A DNA stretch of 20,495 nucleotides, taken from a virus. How positions within the stretch are numbered: position 1 is the stretch's first letter; every line of letters starts with the position of its first letter. Shown here piece after piece: positions 10,131-20,495 of the stretch. The stretch is taken from positions 1-20,495 of IMG/VR virus record IMGVR_UViG_3300042691_027647; one strand, 5' to 3'. The notes below the pieces were generated by a model. It searched no databases. It was given only the letters and a program-made list of their open reading frames with translations, and had not been told where the DNA came from. Both the position numbers and the translations under genes were made by a program.

Positions 10131-10610
10131 TTAAGCAATTAATCCATGATTTTTTAAAGTAGTAATAATACTCGCAATTGCAACTCTTGATTCAGCATCA
10201 ATTATAGTTCCACTTGCTGGGTTGGCTATTGTTGGTTCTTGACTTCCGACAACTTTTATATTGCTAACTTTATAAGAAGTTGCATTGATAGATTTATCGC
10301 AATCAGTATCGCCTGTAATAGTGTTTTTACTAGCTCCAGCCTTAAATCCATTGTTTGACTTTCTGTTTTTTATTTCGCTATCACCTTCCGCAAGGCTTGA
10401 TTGCGTAGCTACATCATAAGGAATACCAAACAAATTAGTTTTACTTCCTAACCCACCAAATAACAAAACAAGCGTTGATTCACTAGGCTTCACCCTGCTT
10501 TGCGTTCCATAAGGATAAATTAATAATACATCATCAAATATTTCGTTTTGATATGAAACAACCGTTGCGTAAGTGCCATCGGTCTTAGTTATGTAGCCTT
10601 TTATAATCAT
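10131..10610 (-). CDS. Baseplate spike protein (Mu gp45-like), reversed
   Basis: A 159-residue protein. The N-terminal OB-like part 'IIKGYITKTDGTYATVVSYQNEIFDDVLLIYPYGTQSRVKPSESTLVLLFGGLGSKTNLFGIPYDV' matches the Mu gp45/gpV pattern (Y-G-x-x-S near the 'pyG', then 'p..sE.lvLf.gG...n...ip.d'). The later 'SNNGFKAGASKNTITGDTDCDKSI' repetitive part would form the beta-helical spike. It lies exactly in the gp44-gp45-gp46 slot but on the minus strand, opposite every other tail gene. There is no matching long inverted repeat at its ends by eye. It seems intact, with no internal stop. It must be expressed from its own promoter or have been inverted recently. Confidence 0.8.
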   Translation of the reverse strand: MIIKGYITKTDGTYATVVSYQNEIFDDVLLIYPYGTQSRVKPSESTLVLLFGGLGSKTNLFGIPYDVATQSSLAEGDSEIKNRKSNNGFKAGASKNTITGDTDCDKSINATSYKVSNIKVVGSQEPTIANPASGTIIDAESRVAIASIITTLKNHGLIA

Positions 10611-16291: not shown

Positions 16292-16471
16292 ATGAACCTT
16301 ATTTTTATTTCATTATTTTTAACAAATGCTTTTTGTGTTTTTTTGTTTATTTTTTTGTTTTTAAAAATAGAAAAATTGGAAGAAAAACAAGAAAAAGAAT
16401 ATCAACATTTGCTTAAAAATATCAGGCATATTGGTAAATTTTTAGAAGAAAATTCAAATAAAAAAATATGA
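16292..16471 (+). CDS. 59-residue TM plus coiled-coil protein
   Basis: A 59-residue protein (MNLIFISLFLTNAFCVFLFI... then 'FLKIEKLEEKQEKEYQHLLKNIRHIGKFLEENSNKKI'): one long membrane segment (3-24) followed by a charged helix of coiled-coil character. It starts 3 nt after the preceding stop and overlaps the spanin gene through ATGA. The layout is that of a small membrane anchor, for example an antiholin or spanin-like accessory; I do not recognise it. Support comes from spacing, overlap and the clean hydrophobic/charged split. Confidence 0.6.
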   Translation: MNLIFISLFLTNAFCVFLFIFLFLKIEKLEEKQEKEYQHLLKNIRHIGKFLEENSNKKI

Positions 16472-16716
16472 AAAACAAAATTATATTTTATTCAATTTTA
16501 TTTTTAATAGCTTTGTGCATAAAGCCAGTTGTTGGCTTCATGACTGAAGCGAGAGACTGCAAATTTGAACTTGAAAATTTCAAACAAGCAGAAATTAACA
16601 ATAAAAAAATAATAACTAATAATAAAATTTATGTTAAAAAACTTAAAGAAAATTTACTTGACGGTGATGTTGCTTTTCGCATCAAGTTGCTCAAACAAAT
16701 CAATCCCAGTGAATAG
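16468..16716 (+). CDS. Inner-membrane spanin (Rz-like)
   Basis: An 82-residue protein: one TM segment (residues 4-22, KIIFYSILFLIALCIKPVV) and a short periplasmic, highly charged helix (MTEARDCKFELENFKQAEINNKKIITNNKIYVKKLKENLLDGD). This is the standard i-spanin layout. The next gene, a lipoprotein, starts at 16631 in another frame within it, which is the classic Rz/Rz1 arrangement. It fuses inner and outer membranes in the last step of lysis. Sequence similarity to lambda Rz is not visible, as is usual for spanins. The call rests on layout and partner. Confidence 0.68.
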   Translation: MKNKIIFYSILFLIALCIKPVVGFMTEARDCKFELENFKQAEINNKKIITNNKIYVKKLKENLLDGDVAFRIKLLKQINPSE

Positions 16717-16894
16717 CGGTTGCATGGAATTTTGCGAGCAAATACCAGATCCAAAATTACAAATGTTTAAGCAAAATTTAAATAACGATACTTTTAATTT
16801 TTTGGTTGAAGTCCACAACCTCAAACATTGCGGTTGCTTAACTGAGCAAAGCGAAATCATTGCTTGTCAAAAAAAATATCAAGTAGAACAATGA
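16631..16894 (+). CDS. Outer-membrane spanin lipoprotein (Rz1-like)
   Basis: An 87-residue protein with a signal sequence 'LKKIYLTVMLLFASS' ending in a lipobox-like A-S-S-C, so Cys20 would be the lipidated residue. The mature part has five more cysteines (CMEFCEQ, HCGC, ACQ). It starts inside the i-spanin gene (overlap 16631-16716) in a different frame and extends past its stop, so the two genes overlap rather than being fully embedded. Unlike lambda Rz1 it is not proline-rich. The C-terminus overlaps the next ATG by 4 nt (ATGA). Confidence 0.7.
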   Translation: MLKNLKKIYLTVMLLFASSCSNKSIPVNSGCMEFCEQIPDPKLQMFKQNLNNDTFNFLVEVHNLKHCGCLTEQSEIIACQKKYQVEQ

Positions 16895-17400
16895 AAATAA
16901 TGTTATTTTTTTTATTATTTTTTTTAACAAAAAATTCTTTTGCAAGCCTTTATTTGAGCGGTGGTGTGCTATATCAAAAGCATTACGATAAATCCTTTTA
17001 TTTGCAAGAAAAAATATCACCAACCCTCTCTGCTGGTTATTTCACAAATTTTAAAAATATAACTGGAACGATTCAAACTAATCGAATTTCCAATTTTGTT
17101 CAGAAAGATTTTGTTAAAAATAAACAAAACGGCAAGGCTTATGAACTCAAGAGTCGATTGACTGCCGATAGTGTTTCAATTGGTTATAAATTTGGCAAAT
17201 TCAACCCCACATTTGCAATTTCTAATGTTCGATTAGAAAAAACTATTGACAAAAGAAAAATTAATCACGCCTTAATTTATTCCTTGAATCTTAATTATTT
17301 TTTTGGTAAAAATGTATCGGTTGCTACCGCAGTAATTGCTCCGAATAAAGAATTAGGGTTAACTTCTGCGGGATTAATATCATTTAATTATTATTTTTAA
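16891..17400 (+). CDS. Small outer-membrane beta-barrel protein
   Basis: From ATG 16891 (rather than TTG 16864) the protein has 169 residues. A hydrophobic signal peptide (IMLFFLLFFLTKNSFA, cleavage likely after residue 18) is followed by alternating amphipathic strands (YLSGGVLYQKHY, LSAGYFTNF, TGTIQTNRISNFV, ADSVSIGYKF, PTFAISNVRLEK, ALIYSLNLNYFFGK, SVATAVIAP, LTSAGLISFNYYF). The last residue is an aromatic F preceded by YY, the standard barrel-insertion signature. An 8-stranded barrel is likely. Phages carry such proteins (Lom/Ail type) to change the host surface or block superinfection; that role is inferred. It follows the o-spanin by an ATGA overlap. Confidence 0.75.
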   Translation: MKIMLFFLLFFLTKNSFASLYLSGGVLYQKHYDKSFYLQEKISPTLSAGYFTNFKNITGTIQTNRISNFVQKDFVKNKQNGKAYELKSRLTADSVSIGYKFGKFNPTFAISNVRLEKTIDKRKINHALIYSLNLNYFFGKNVSVATAVIAPNKELGLTSAGLISFNYYF

Positions 17401-18379: not shown

Positions 18380-18513
18380 TCTTCTATTTTAAATTAACAA
18401 ATTAGTAATAAAAAATAGAACTTTTAGTAATAAATTAGTAGAAAAAGTGCCTTTAACCCGCTTAAACACTGTATCCAAAAAAATCGGATTTTTTTCAACT
18501 AAATAGAAGATTA
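18377..18513. repeat. 13-bp inverted repeat bracketing a non-coding stretch
   Basis: TAATCTTCTATTT at 18377-18389 (beginning in the nuclease stop codon) pairs perfectly with AAATAGAAGATTA at 18501-18513. The first arm can instead pair with AAAATAGAA at 18412-18420. Between lie two copies of TTAGTAATAAA (18402-18412, 18424-18434) and a third, shorter TTAGTAGAAA (18435-18444). Strand and function are open. Confidence 0.8.
18477..18495. terminator. AT-rich hairpin, possible bidirectional terminator
   Basis: Seven A (18477-18483) are followed by TCGGA and seven T (18489-18495), so the RNA from either strand forms a stem with a U run on its 3' side. It lies just after the nuclease gene and may terminate plus-strand transcription. 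The stem has no GC pair outside the loop, so strength is doubtful. Confidence 0.45.
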
Positions 18514-18520
18514 GGGAATC

Positions 18521-18548
18521 TTAAAGGTGTCGAATTCGACACCTTTAA
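18521..18548. repeat. Perfect 28-bp palindrome centred on GAATTC
   Basis: Each half reads TTAAAGGTGTCGAA toward the centre, with no mismatch and no loop. There is no T run on either side, so it is not a standard terminator. It could be a protein-binding operator, a cruciform, or part of a structured RNA. It directly abuts the long-range stem that starts at 18548. Confidence 0.9.
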
Positions 18549-18865
18549 AAACACAGCCCCCTACAAGAATTTACCACTAACCACAATTGCAATTAGCTTA
18601 CCTGCTTTTACAAGAAACTTTACAGGCACTCCGAAGATATGATTTATTATTCTTAAGCTATCACGATTAGACTTAGTCAACCGCTGTGTTTTACCGTCCC
18701 CTTATTTTGCCCTAGCTTGATACTTAGGTAAGCGATGAACCTACTAGGGCTTGCTCGTTCCAGAGGTCTTGGAGTTATTGCCTAAAACTAACATCTCTAT
18801 TAGCCTTTCCAAAACTTAACCGCTTGATTAATGACCCCTTTCGAGGATTGACTAGCTCGTTTTTT
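18548..18865 (+). ncRNA. Candidate structured non-coding RNA
   Basis: About 318 nt with no credible protein gene and a raised G+C content (27 and 28 of 60 bases in 18661-18720 and 18721-18780, against about a third elsewhere). Complementary segments seen by eye are a 10-bp closing stem (18548-18557 with 18683-18692) and nested inside it ACTAA/TTAGT (18576-18580, 18673-18677), TAGCTTA/TAAGCTA (18594-18600, 18654-18660) and CCTG/CAGG (18601-18604, 18623-18626). Next is a two-part hairpin GCCCTAG..TAGGT/ACCTA..CTAGGGC (18709-18750), then GTCTTGGA/TCCAAAAC (18766-18773, 18808-18815, one mismatch). A CGAG/CTCG hairpin then runs into six T, which suggests plus-strand transcription. I do not recognise it as tmRNA, RNase P RNA or a known class. 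Strand is uncertain. Confidence 0.4.
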
Positions 18866-18889
18866 AAGCGTCTAGTATGCTTTTATTTT
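18842..18889 (+). terminator. Two weak terminator-like hairpins before convergent genes
   Basis: CGAG/CTCG (18842-18845, 18856-18859) is followed by TTTTTT (18860-18865), and AAGC/GCTT (18866-18869, 18879-18882) by a TTATTTT run. Stems are only 4 bp. Their place, just before the end of the minus-strand operon at 18910, fits a boundary terminator for plus-strand RNA. Confidence 0.4.
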
Positions 18890-18909
18890 AAACTGCATTA
18901 ATTTAAAAG

Positions 18910-19095
18910 TCAAATTTTTGGAGTCGTATCCCAGACATAGCTAAAAAAAGAAATTATAAAAGATATAAAAATTATTATTTCCCTAGAATTCTCGTCCCAA
19001 TTTGTATAATTAAAATCGGCAAGAGCAAATCCCGTAAAAAAATACAATACCCCAAATACAATAAAGAAGATTAAAAAAGCTTTAAGTAATTTCAT
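18910..19095 (-). CDS. 61-residue membrane protein
   Basis: Two hydrophobic segments (about 4-26, LKAFLIFFIVFGVLYFFTGFAL, and 40-55, IIIFISFIISFFSYVW) are joined by a polar loop with 'DFNYTNWDENSRE'. It is the last gene of the minus-strand row of tiny membrane proteins and starts 3 nt after the preceding stop. No Shine-Dalgarno is visible, so it may depend on coupled translation. I do not recognise a family. Support comes from its place in a tightly spaced operon. Confidence 0.55.
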   Translation of the reverse strand: MKLLKAFLIFFIVFGVLYFFTGFALADFNYTNWDENSREIIIFISFIISFFSYVWDTTPKI

Positions 19096-19098
19096 AAA

Positions 19099-19218
19099 TT
19101 AGTAATTTACATTAATATACAATAACAACCACGAGTTGATTAAACTTGCTAATTTGATTGTTTTTGCGTAAAGAAATAATGTTCCAAATACTGCAATAGA
19201 GATTAATAAAGCTTTCAT
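19099..19218 (-). CDS. 39-residue membrane protein
   Basis: A very short protein, MKALLISIAVFGTLFLYAKT followed by IKLASLINSWLLLYINVNY, with one clear membrane segment and a second possible amphipathic one. It starts 1 nt after the preceding stop (TAGTATG) and ends 3 nt before the next gene. It is supported mainly by this spacing; function unknown. Confidence 0.5.
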   Translation of the reverse strand: MKALLISIAVFGTLFLYAKTIKLASLINSWLLLYINVNY

Positions 19219-19219
19219 A

Positions 19220-19462
19220 CTATTTGCAATATAATCTTAAAGACATTTGCTCACAAGCCCCAATCGCCCGCAGGTCTTTTGTTTTATCTGCTTTTATGCA
19301 ATCAAGAATAAACTTGCTTTGCTTTTCGCTATCGCAAATAGAGTCTTTACTACTTTTTATAATATTTGTTGAAAAGTGCAATGCAACAAAAGACAAAAAA
19401 ATTAAAGAAAATATACACATTCCCTTTTTCCATAACTCCCAAGGATCAAAATCAAAAATCAT
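19220..19462 (-). CDS. 80-residue membrane protein with Cys-rich tail
   Basis: An N-terminal 'MIFDFDPWELWKKGM' amphipathic stretch is followed by one membrane segment (about 16-34, CIFSLIFLSFVALHF) and a polar C-terminal domain with four cysteines (SICD, LDCIK, GACEQ, YCK). Such spacing may form disulfides if the domain is periplasmic. GGAGG lies upstream, within the end of the preceding gene, and the ATG follows its stop by 1 nt (TAATATG). Function unknown; the strongest ribosome binding site in the small-protein row supports translation. Confidence 0.62.
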   Translation of the reverse strand: MIFDFDPWELWKKGMCIFSLIFLSFVALHFSTNIIKSSKDSICDSEKQSKFILDCIKADKTKDLRAIGACEQMSLRLYCK

Positions 19463-19463
19463 A

Positions 19464-19616
19464 TTAAAACCTCCAAATTAAATAAACCAATGCAATCACG
19501 CTAACTACATAGCCAAAAGCATAATCAACCCTTTGCGATTTCCATGTAAGATGCAAATATTTATTATACATAAAAGAGTGAAAAAAGATAAAAAGTAAAG
19601 TAAAAATAAAAATCAT
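19464..19616 (-). CDS. 50-residue two-TM membrane protein
   Basis: The protein is MIFIFTLLFIFFHSFMYNKY followed by LHLTWKSQRVDYAFGYVVSVIALVYLIWRF: two membrane segments with a short basic, polar turn. It begins 1 nt after the preceding stop (TAATATG) and its last codons contain the GGAGG of the next gene. No Shine-Dalgarno of its own is visible. It is short enough to be missed by length cut-offs. Function unknown. Confidence 0.5.
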   Translation of the reverse strand: MIFIFTLLFIFFHSFMYNKYLHLTWKSQRVDYAFGYVVSVIALVYLIWRF

Positions 19617-19617
19617 A

Positions 19618-19767
19618 TTAAATAAAAATCATTAATAACATTAAAGCGTATGAAATAAATACTATTGAAACTGATTTAAGCAAATCTCCTTTTTCGCAGT
19701 AAAAATATAGGCTACCAAAAAAACTGACACAAAAAATTAAAATATAAACAAATGTTTCTACTGACAT
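19618..19767 (-). CDS. 49-residue two-TM membrane protein
   Basis: The protein is MSVETFVYILIFCVSFFGSL, then 'YFYCEKGDLLKSVSIVFISYALMLLMIFI'. Two membrane segments flank a short 'CEKGDLLK' loop. A run of G (GGGGG) about 6 nt before the ATG may act as a weak ribosome binding site. It begins 1 nt after the preceding stop. Function unknown; the packed operon layout is the main evidence. Confidence 0.5.
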   Translation of the reverse strand: MSVETFVYILIFCVSFFGSLYFYCEKGDLLKSVSIVFISYALMLLMIFI

Positions 19768-19768
19768 T

Positions 19769-19945
19769 TTAAACCCCCACAATTGTTATTAAATTAAAAT
19801 GCACTAACAAAATAAATAAAATTTTTAAAACAGCGTGAATAACTAATAAAACCGCCCCGACTAAACCCAATTTAGTAAGCCCTTTAATTCCGCTGATGAA
19901 GAACAAAAATCCAAGAAAAAATAAAATTTCTGATATATACAACAT
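19769..19945 (-). CDS. 58-residue two-TM membrane protein
   Basis: The protein is MLYISEILFFLGFLFFISGI, then 'KGLTKLGLVGAVLLVIHAVLKILFILLVHFNLITIVGV'. Two long hydrophobic segments are separated by a short basic turn. The ATG follows the stop of the nuclease-like gene with no gap (TAAATG), and GAGG lies a few bases upstream, inside that gene's end. Two-segment shape is holin-like, but no family is recognised. Translation coupling to the preceding gene is likely. Confidence 0.55.
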   Translation of the reverse strand: MLYISEILFFLGFLFFISGIKGLTKLGLVGAVLLVIHAVLKILFILLVHFNLITIVGV

Positions 19946-20296
19946 TTAAACCTCTAAAAATAAATATTCTGGATAAGTAAATTTTACCAACTTCCTTTTA
20001 ATAATATAAGCTGGCAATTTTTTTGTAAAAGGCGATTTAACATCTTCAATCACAAATGAATTTTTCTCAATGTCAAAATAAACAAAATCAGCTATATATT
20101 TAATTCCCCTTTCGGTTATGCCCTGCTTATCTTTAAAGCTAGGTAATAGATTAAACGGGCTTTGTTTTGTCAAATTTCTTATAACTCCCGCTTTCTGCAA
20201 TATTTCTAATTCCTTAAAACGCTTAGCCTCTTTTTTAGAATCAAAACCATCTTTGGTTTTAACATTCTTGTATTTGTTGCCCTTATAATAATTCAT
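19946..20296 (-). CDS. DUF1064 nuclease-like protein
   Basis: A 116-residue protein. 'KYKNVKTKDGFDSKKEAKRFKELEILQKAGVIRNLTKQSPFNLLPSF...GIKYIADFVYFDIEKNSFVIEDVKSPFTKK...YIIKRKLVKFTYPEYLFLEV' fits DUF1064, a small phage family with PD-(D/E)XK nuclease character. Candidate active residues are E23, D70 and the E84-D85-V86-K87 motif. It probably cuts branched or damaged DNA during replication or recombination; the enzymatic role is inferred from family. AGAGGG upstream of the ATG gives a good start. It overlaps the preceding gene by 14 nt and precedes the row of membrane proteins. Confidence 0.82.
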   Translation of the reverse strand: MNYYKGNKYKNVKTKDGFDSKKEAKRFKELEILQKAGVIRNLTKQSPFNLLPSFKDKQGITERGIKYIADFVYFDIEKNSFVIEDVKSPFTKKLPAYIIKRKLVKFTYPEYLFLEV

Positions 20297-20495
20297 ATTC
20301 CCTCTTTAAGTTTTCATAGTTATTCAAATATTCTGTAAATTTATCAGAGTTTGCAAAGCTTATTAATTCACAATAATGATTGTCCCTAATCGATTTCTCA
20401 TCTCCATAAGATAAAAATATTTCTATAAAATTATCATATTTTAATACAATAGAATAATTTTTAATTTTATAATCATCACGAAAATCACTTATTAC
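20283..20495 (-). CDS. Partial gene, C-terminal 70 residues
   Basis: A reading frame open from the right edge to TAA at 20285-20283 encodes 'VISDFRDDYKIKNYSIVLKYDNFIEIFLSYGDEKSIRDNHYCELISFANSDKFTEYLNNYENLKREYELL'. It is polar and of mixed helix and strand, with no membrane segment. The start lies outside the window. It overlaps the DUF1064 gene by 14 nt, so it is probably co-transcribed with it. I do not recognise the family. Confidence 0.6.
   Translation of the reverse strand, partial: VISDFRDDYKIKNYSIVLKYDNFIEIFLSYGDEKSIRDNHYCELISFANSDKFTEYLNNYENLKREYELL

Follow-up and report, generated by a model that had tools for sequence, protein, structure and literature searches.

The six very small open reading frames at positions 18910-19945 of the window (the whole stretch analysed, a linear virus record of 20,495 bases with its tail genes on the plus strand) are part of a larger unit, which begins behind a DUF1064 gene and has a noncoding RNA gene directly after its last frame. 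Four of the six frames, g1, g3, g4, and g6, are strongly supported by comparison with related phages as real genes under purifying selection, the RNA is an undescribed phage RNA family, and the block forms the 3' end of an early replication/recombination operon. The function that we tentatively favor for the small proteins is that of an early envelope-modifying kit, probably serving superinfection exclusion. The features of the region, in the order in which the minus strand is read and followed by the convergent late gene, are as follows.

20283-20495, minus strand: upstream early gene, cut by the window end; homologue of L108:3476-3817 by position and sequence only, with no family match
19946-20296, minus strand: DUF1064/Holliday junction resolvase gene of 116 codons (Pfam DUF1064, E 1.2e-15; PHROG 190, E 1.1e-26)
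19769-19945, minus strand: g1 (family F1), predicted membrane protein of 58 aa, ATG start
19618-19767, minus strand: g2, 49 aa, two predicted membrane segments, ATG start
19464-19616, minus strand: g3 (family F3), 50 aa, two predicted membrane segments with a K/R-rich loop, ATG start
19220-19462, minus strand: g4 (family F4), 80 aa, one predicted membrane helix and a C-terminal four-cysteine helical hairpin, ATG start
19099-19218, minus strand: g5, predicted membrane protein of 39 aa, ATG start
18910-19095, minus strand: g6 (family F6), 61 aa, two predicted membrane helices, ATG start
18885-18913, minus strand: putative promoter of the RNA gene, TTGACT-17-TAAAAT, overlapping the g6 stop codon
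18709-18878, minus strand: structured noncoding RNA (model R1) of about 170 nt, seven helices and a possible AAGCG/CGCTT pseudoknot
18509-18700, minus strand: second noncoding stretch, about 95% conserved in L004 and absent from L010 and L012
17960-18379, plus strand: convergent late gene, a staphylococcal-nuclease homologue (Pfam SNase, E 3.9e-15) that marks the end of the late transcript

The location, lengths (58, 49, 50, 80, 39, and 61 codons), and ATG starts that an earlier note had given for the six minus-strand frames are all correct, and its description of TAATATG-type junctions with 0-3 nt spacing holds equally: the resolvase gene abuts g1 with a gap of 0 nt, the gaps from g1 to g6 are 1, 1, 1, 1, and 3 nt, and the junctions are of the TAA-n-ATG or TAG-T-ATG type. 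The adjoining gene that it took to be nuclease-like and early is the DUF1064 gene, a Holliday junction resolvase according to PHROGs. With 44% T on the coding strand of the block, the row might be explained as open frames in T-rich noncoding DNA; chance open frames here look hydrophobic (56% of those of at least 39 aa in shuffled sequence pass a Kyte-Doolittle cut of 1.6), so that hydrophobicity alone is weak evidence for membrane genes, and g2 and g5 give no significant signal of selection. This explanation is nevertheless extremely improbable, given that a chain of six abutting ATG frames occurred in none of 2,000 dinucleotide shuffles of the block, in which the longest chain was two, and that conserved frames and dN/dS values speak for four of the six. 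For g1, g3, g4, and g6, it is refuted by the sequence comparisons.

The earlier note had looked to related phages, and to a dN/dS test on each short gene, for a decision on whether these frames are genes. In the relatives the frames are kept open, F1, F3, F4, and F6 recur in 5 to 10 other phage contigs each, and pairwise Nei-Gojobori estimates, in which some close pairs lie near 1 and are limited by small counts, point to purifying selection on all four families. The ratios are 0.33-0.61 for F1 (L010-L108, p 0.026), 0.22-0.55 in most of the larger-divergence comparisons for F3 (L010-L132, p 0.0002), and 0.24-0.62 for F4 (L009-L132, p 0.0002), with the exception of the window-L004 pair of F4 at 1.68; in that pair 37 of 39 C-terminal residues are identical and the membrane half is strongly different, and the high value is attributable to replacement of that half. 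For F6, the window and L004 copies give 0.22-0.32 against more distant copies, the window copy yielding 0.24-0.32 against L010, L012, L106, and L108 (p 0.0004 for L010 and 0.0003-0.0004 for L012). The test was non-significant for g2 (p 0.52) and g5 (p 0.2), which remain unproven as genes because L004 is their sole comparator; the g2 homologue there has 88% amino acid identity, and that of g5 has 95% identity with four changes, all at codon position 3. As for the membrane character claimed for all six, hydropathy counts for little in such T-rich sequence, and it is conservation in relatives that backs it: where a hydrophobic residue is changed by a single-base replacement, the new residue is again hydrophobic in 86% of cases, the expectation being 73%, an excess that comes from F1, F3, and F6 and is drawn from non-independent pairs, and which is therefore no more than supportive.

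Close relatives of the DUF1064 protein, 71-100% identical, were found in eleven other uncultured phage contigs (L002-L012), and searches with the small proteins added four further carriers (L106, L108, L132, and L139). Nothing matched in a blastn search of 4 kb of the window, or in tblastn searches with g4 and g6, against 50,697 phage records. Homologues of F1 are present in 10 further contigs, those of F3 in L008, L009, L010, L011, L106, L108, L132, L139, and L142 (the last being the same contig as the RNA-bearing L117), and those of F6 in L004, L010, L012, L106, L108, L086/G008, L113/G015, L116/G017, L169, and L170; g2 and g5 each have a single homologue, in L004. Reading of the loci, combined with profile searches across the loci obtained, gave the following cassette contents.

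Window: F1-g2-F3-F4-g5-F6-RNA
L004: g2-F4-g5-F6-RNA
L010: F1-F3-F4-F6-RNA
L106: F1-F2-F3-F4-F6-RNA
L108: F1-F2-F3-F6-RNA
L012: (short F1)-F2-(49-aa protein)-F6-RNA
L009: F1-F3-F4
L008 and L011: F1-F3
L139: F1-F2-F3
L132: F2-F1-F3-F4 (F1 and F2 swapped)
L142: F3 only
L002: two tandem F1 copies, then contig end

The order F1-(F2)-F3-F4-(g5)-F6-RNA is thus near-constant, while members are gained and lost singly and loss is frequent. The preceding nuclease is either the DUF1064 protein or a VRR-NUC-like one (L106, L108, L132, L139, and L142), and the cassette is undisturbed by this swap. Tandem duplications of F1 (L002, 5352-5677) and of F6 (L170, 6505-6913) indicate that the cassette also expands by duplication.

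In the two contigs of nearly 40 kb, G012 and G013, the cassette ends an operon of about 17 kb that encodes a DnaB-like helicase (recognized by eye) and RecT, and that converges with the lysis genes; an exonuclease and a NinB homologue (PHROGs) are encoded by the early operon in related contigs, and no integrase was recognized by eye. The late genes converge on the cassette and end in the SNase gene and lysis genes. Since the structural modules differ among the window, G012, and G013, the early block evidently moves between phages of different build. Its setting recalls the nin region of lambdoid phages, where an early operon likewise ends in genes for a NinB-like protein, the DUF1064 Holliday junction resolvase, and other recombination functions, the difference being that a membrane-protein cassette and an RNA gene follow here; to our knowledge, neither has been described in the nin region. 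The plus-strand tail operon of the window contains a 159-codon gene in opposite orientation (10131-10610, minus strand), and a similar arrangement is found in a contig of a Rickettsiales metagenome-assembled genome (MAG; L160, 12184-12663, minus strand); the window gene had no PHROG match and resembles a baseplate or spike protein by eye, in which case its inversion would be odd.

The small size of the cassette proteins and their one or two predicted membrane helices would also suit additional lysis proteins of the holin, antiholin, or pinholin-like kind. That role is very unlikely, because the cassette belongs to the early operon and runs opposite to the convergent late operon, which already holds a complete-looking lysis cassette with an endolysin-like gene, a spanin-like overlapping pair, and membrane proteins. 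In the window the overlapping pair (16468-16894, plus strand) consists of a membrane-anchored protein of 82 aa and a lipoprotein-like one of 87 aa in the layout of Rz/Rz1 spanins, without a family match in Pfam or PHROGs.

The host is probably a Rickettsiales-type bacterium, judging from sequence relationships. The window's tail sheath protein is 75% identical to one encoded in JALREU010000017.1, a contig of the MAG Rickettsiales bacterium JTM.66, with which the tail genes are collinear, and one further genome from this order (263 searched) carries two copies of the RNA in its contigs; the assignment is held at probable because phage contigs can be misbinned.

None of the six proteins had been recognized at first reading, and comparison with Pfam, PHROGs, PADLOC, and NCBIfam likewise gave nothing above noise. 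The best PADLOC values (a collection of defence proteins only), E 0.079 and 0.1, were to generic two-helix models, and thus lend no support to the suggestion of a membrane-targeting defence. The broader suggestion of a superinfection-exclusion, defence, or host-takeover module fared better in part: the block is a conserved, accessory set of small membrane-protein genes in the early region, but its members match no known exclusion, defence, or take-over family in these four collections, and described exclusion proteins had no significant cassette match in Pfam, PHROGs, or NCBIfam.

Structural predictions give the proteins more definition. AlphaFold models of the cassette proteins are of moderate confidence and their helices agree with hydropathy, both being predictions made in T-rich sequence. 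The g4 model (pLDDT 76) has helices at residues 7-37, 45-58, and 64-78, which form a membrane helix and, after it, a hairpin of two helices with four conserved cysteines; it had no structural neighbor with E below 0.001. The cysteines suggest an oxidizing compartment, and the hairpin would lie on the periplasmic side. Their spacing hinted at a kinship of F4 with the small lipoproteins whose genes neighbor F6 in L122 and L169, but this was rejected (profile comparison probability 0.5%). The g6 model is a two-helix hairpin (pLDDT 84), and F6 conserves D-[FI]-N-[FY]-x-N-W-x4-R at and after the turn joining the helices, a turn that would be periplasmic according to the positive-inside rule, applied by eye.

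Envelope modification for superinfection exclusion, the function that we favor with reservation, would proceed as follows. The small proteins would be made early, as gene order suggests, from the 3' end of the early operon and by coupled translation, which is suggested by the several cassette junctions that have no Shine-Dalgarno sequence. Inserted into the inner membrane of the host, with the hairpin of g4 disulfide-bonded and exposed on the periplasmic side, they would alter the envelope (inner membrane and periplasm) of the infected cell in such a way that the DNA of competing phages is kept out, with different cassette members perhaps acting on different competitors. Blocking of DNA entry by inner-membrane proteins is well established among phages (PMC10883804), Imm and Sp of T4 being examples (PMC11436027). 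P22 SieA, T4 Imm, and HK97 gp15 resemble the cassette proteins in being small, phage-coded, accessory, and variable between relatives, and in their inner-membrane location, which is predicted here. They differ in having no sequence similarity to the cassette, which comprises up to six different tiny proteins in one row; SieA, for comparison, has three helices and 162-164 residues (PMC10883804). It is the variable and dispensable composition, the membrane and periplasmic design, and this precedent that favor exclusion, a reading tempered by the lack of any match to known exclusion proteins in Pfam, PHROGs, PADLOC, or NCBIfam and of a fold match for g4, by the predicted nature of topology and insertion, by the dependence of g2 and g5 on one close relative each, and by the fit of other envelope functions.

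Chief among those other functions is host take-over, in which the small proteins would reprogram inner-membrane machinery of the host (transporters, proteases, division, or secretion) early in infection. It is consistent with the position in the early operon, with the presence of several unrelated families of one- or two-helix proteins, and with the well-documented action of small phage proteins on host factors (PMC11323111). The frequent loss and gain of members is, however, better suited to dispensable arms-race genes than to a core function; we regard take-over as the main rival, but a doubtful one. Variation of this kind in the last genes of an early operon is typical of anti-defence genes, and a membrane location would suit the blocking of membrane-acting host defences such as abortive-infection effectors or injection blockers. 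Counter-defence of this kind is unlikely, since no known anti-defence or defence family was matched (PADLOC covering defence proteins only) and no defence genes were identified near the homologues.

The RNA gene directly after g6 is the other component of the unit. In the window-L010 pair, 96% of RNA positions are identical while dS of g6 is 0.95, and the RNA stretch is conserved better than g6 itself. Pattern scans, the covariance model R1, and whole-contig searches recovered 16 copies of about 150-180 nt, 14 in virus contigs (the window included) and two in one MAG; the pattern scan of genome contigs had found nothing, and it was model R1 that detected the latter two. In a model-independent MAFFT alignment, 96.8% of cells are paired and 15 pairs are changed on both sides; in the final 16-sequence alignment, which is fitted to the structure, the paired cells amount to 98.1% and compensatory change on both sides affects 18 of 33 pairs, and controls with slid partners reach at most 45%. 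Comparative sequence evidence thus shows a conserved secondary structure with compensatory changes, with four versions of the outer 3' helix (window, L012, L112, and L111 types). The AAGCG and CGCTT segments are 100% paired but both invariant, and hence are no proof of a pseudoknot; free-energy folding of a single sequence gave z -1.4.

Several other identities for this stretch were considered and rejected. A coding function is contradicted by two findings: 15 of the 16 copies lack an in-frame ATG in the one frame that stays open, and variable columns are spread 9/9/11 over codon positions. Identity with an Rfam family, a tRNA, or a tmRNA found no matches: in searches of the window, L083, L086, L113, L116, L117, and L172 against Rfam 15, gathering scores were reached by tRNAs only, and no model, those of ROOL and GOLLD included, matched the R1 RNA. 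A simple terminator is disfavored by the absence of a terminator-like site there and by the presence of a promoter of its own. Contigs L094-L104, brought in solely by an 18-base pattern, are mostly chance matches.

The putative promoter, TTGACT-16/17-TAAAAT, stands exactly 6 nt before helix P1 in the window, L004, L010, L012, L106, L108, and L169, with the variants TTGATT in L012, TACAAT in L108, and TAATAT in L169; L113 and L170 have TTGACA-16-TATCAT slightly further upstream of the RNA. Taken one by one, the matches are weak (1-15% of random windows score equally), and the call depends on the fixed 6-nt distance, six of these sequences being closely related. From its position, transcription would be expected to start at the first helix. 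The RNA comes after phage tRNA genes in L116, L117, and L172, and after tRNA-like stretches, read by eye, in two more contigs, L111 and L112. It is best taken as an independent noncoding transcript with two genomic homes, the end of the early operon and the tRNA array.

Other noncoding elements occur in the vicinity of these RNA genes. The stretch at 18509-18700 of the window, possibly a further RNA module, contains AGCGGTT...TAATCGTGA, like a piece of the L112 noncoding region. Downstream of the RNA in two phages (L112, 2660-2695, and L117) is a pseudoknot-like element, AAGTGGGGAAt.TC.AAgAAAGTTCCACT, which recurs with 92% identity over 36 nt in a 530-nt noncoding gap of Vibrio phage vB_VpaP-MS02 (L118, 2501-2536), the pairing of loop and downstream segment being changed on both sides from GTCTAA/TTAGAC to ATCCAA/TTGGAT. 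MS02 was rejected as a carrier of the RNA itself, as model R1 was not above noise there and only this neighboring element is common to both. Long noncoding regions with repeated hairpins (loop GGGTAAAGA[AT]GA) and tRNA-like pieces are found in L086 (780-1700), L111, and L113 (930-1250), some of them behind a strong TTGACA-TATAAT promoter, and look like larger composite phage RNAs.

The proximity of g6 and the RNA raises the question of whether the two act together. F6 is present with 11 of 15 evaluable RNA copies (window, L004, L010, L012, L106, L108, G008, G015, G017, L169, and L170; the L114 contig, cut at the RNA, was not evaluable), and every F6-bearing contig in the set also has the RNA, the RNA contigs without a clear F6 being L111, L117, L171, and L172. 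With F6 in none of seven contigs without detected RNA, the association (Fisher p 0.004, from related contigs, some covered in part only) is suggestive only. A precedent is provided by OLE RNA, a bacterial RNA of about 600 nt, and its protein OapA, which has four helices and a basic cluster (PMC12265935); as here, a structured RNA is encoded beside the gene for a small membrane protein. By this analogy F6 would anchor or assist the adjacent RNA in a membrane ribonucleoprotein, as the co-occurrence and the direct adjacency of the two in six phages might suggest. Against it stand the four RNA contigs without a clear F6, the distance of hundreds of bases between F6 and RNA in others, and the few and related counts, F6 having been sought in only part of some contigs. 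The RNA here is moreover only about 170 nt, and the two-helix F6 carries an acidic conserved loop predicted to be periplasmic, in contrast to the basic cytoplasmic cluster of the four-helix OapA (PMC12265935). A role of F6 of this kind is accordingly judged highly unlikely, and so is a wider version, in which cassette and RNA are one unit with F6 and perhaps other members holding the RNA at a Rickettsiales-type inner membrane early in infection.

F6 has a second recurrent neighbor. A gene for an outer-membrane-barrel-like protein directly precedes F6 genes in L113/L122 (L122, 186-779), L169 (3087-3656, minus strand), and L170 (5840-6502). Its homologue in the window, beta-barrel-like with a signal peptide, is located in the late region (16864-17400, plus strand; 28% identity, E 2e-14) and had no match in Pfam or PHROGs.

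Small membrane proteins of phages are numerous and mostly ignored, and in this case comparison by itself is enough to establish at least four of six as real; the site that they occupy is a defined one and can guide the search for more of them. The RNA, which has a promoter of its own, covaries strongly, and occupies two kinds of genomic site, offers a compact counterpart to the puzzle of ROOL and GOLLD, structured phage noncoding RNAs of unknown function that occur near phage tRNA genes (PMC12286853). It shares with them its structured nature and tRNA-gene neighbors, and differs in its length of about 150-180 nt, against over 600-800 nt, and in its additional presence where a tRNA-free early operon ends. 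Should the host assignment be correct, the phages infect a group of obligate-intracellular bacteria from which few phages are known, and the cassette would supply concrete genes for tests of envelope control.
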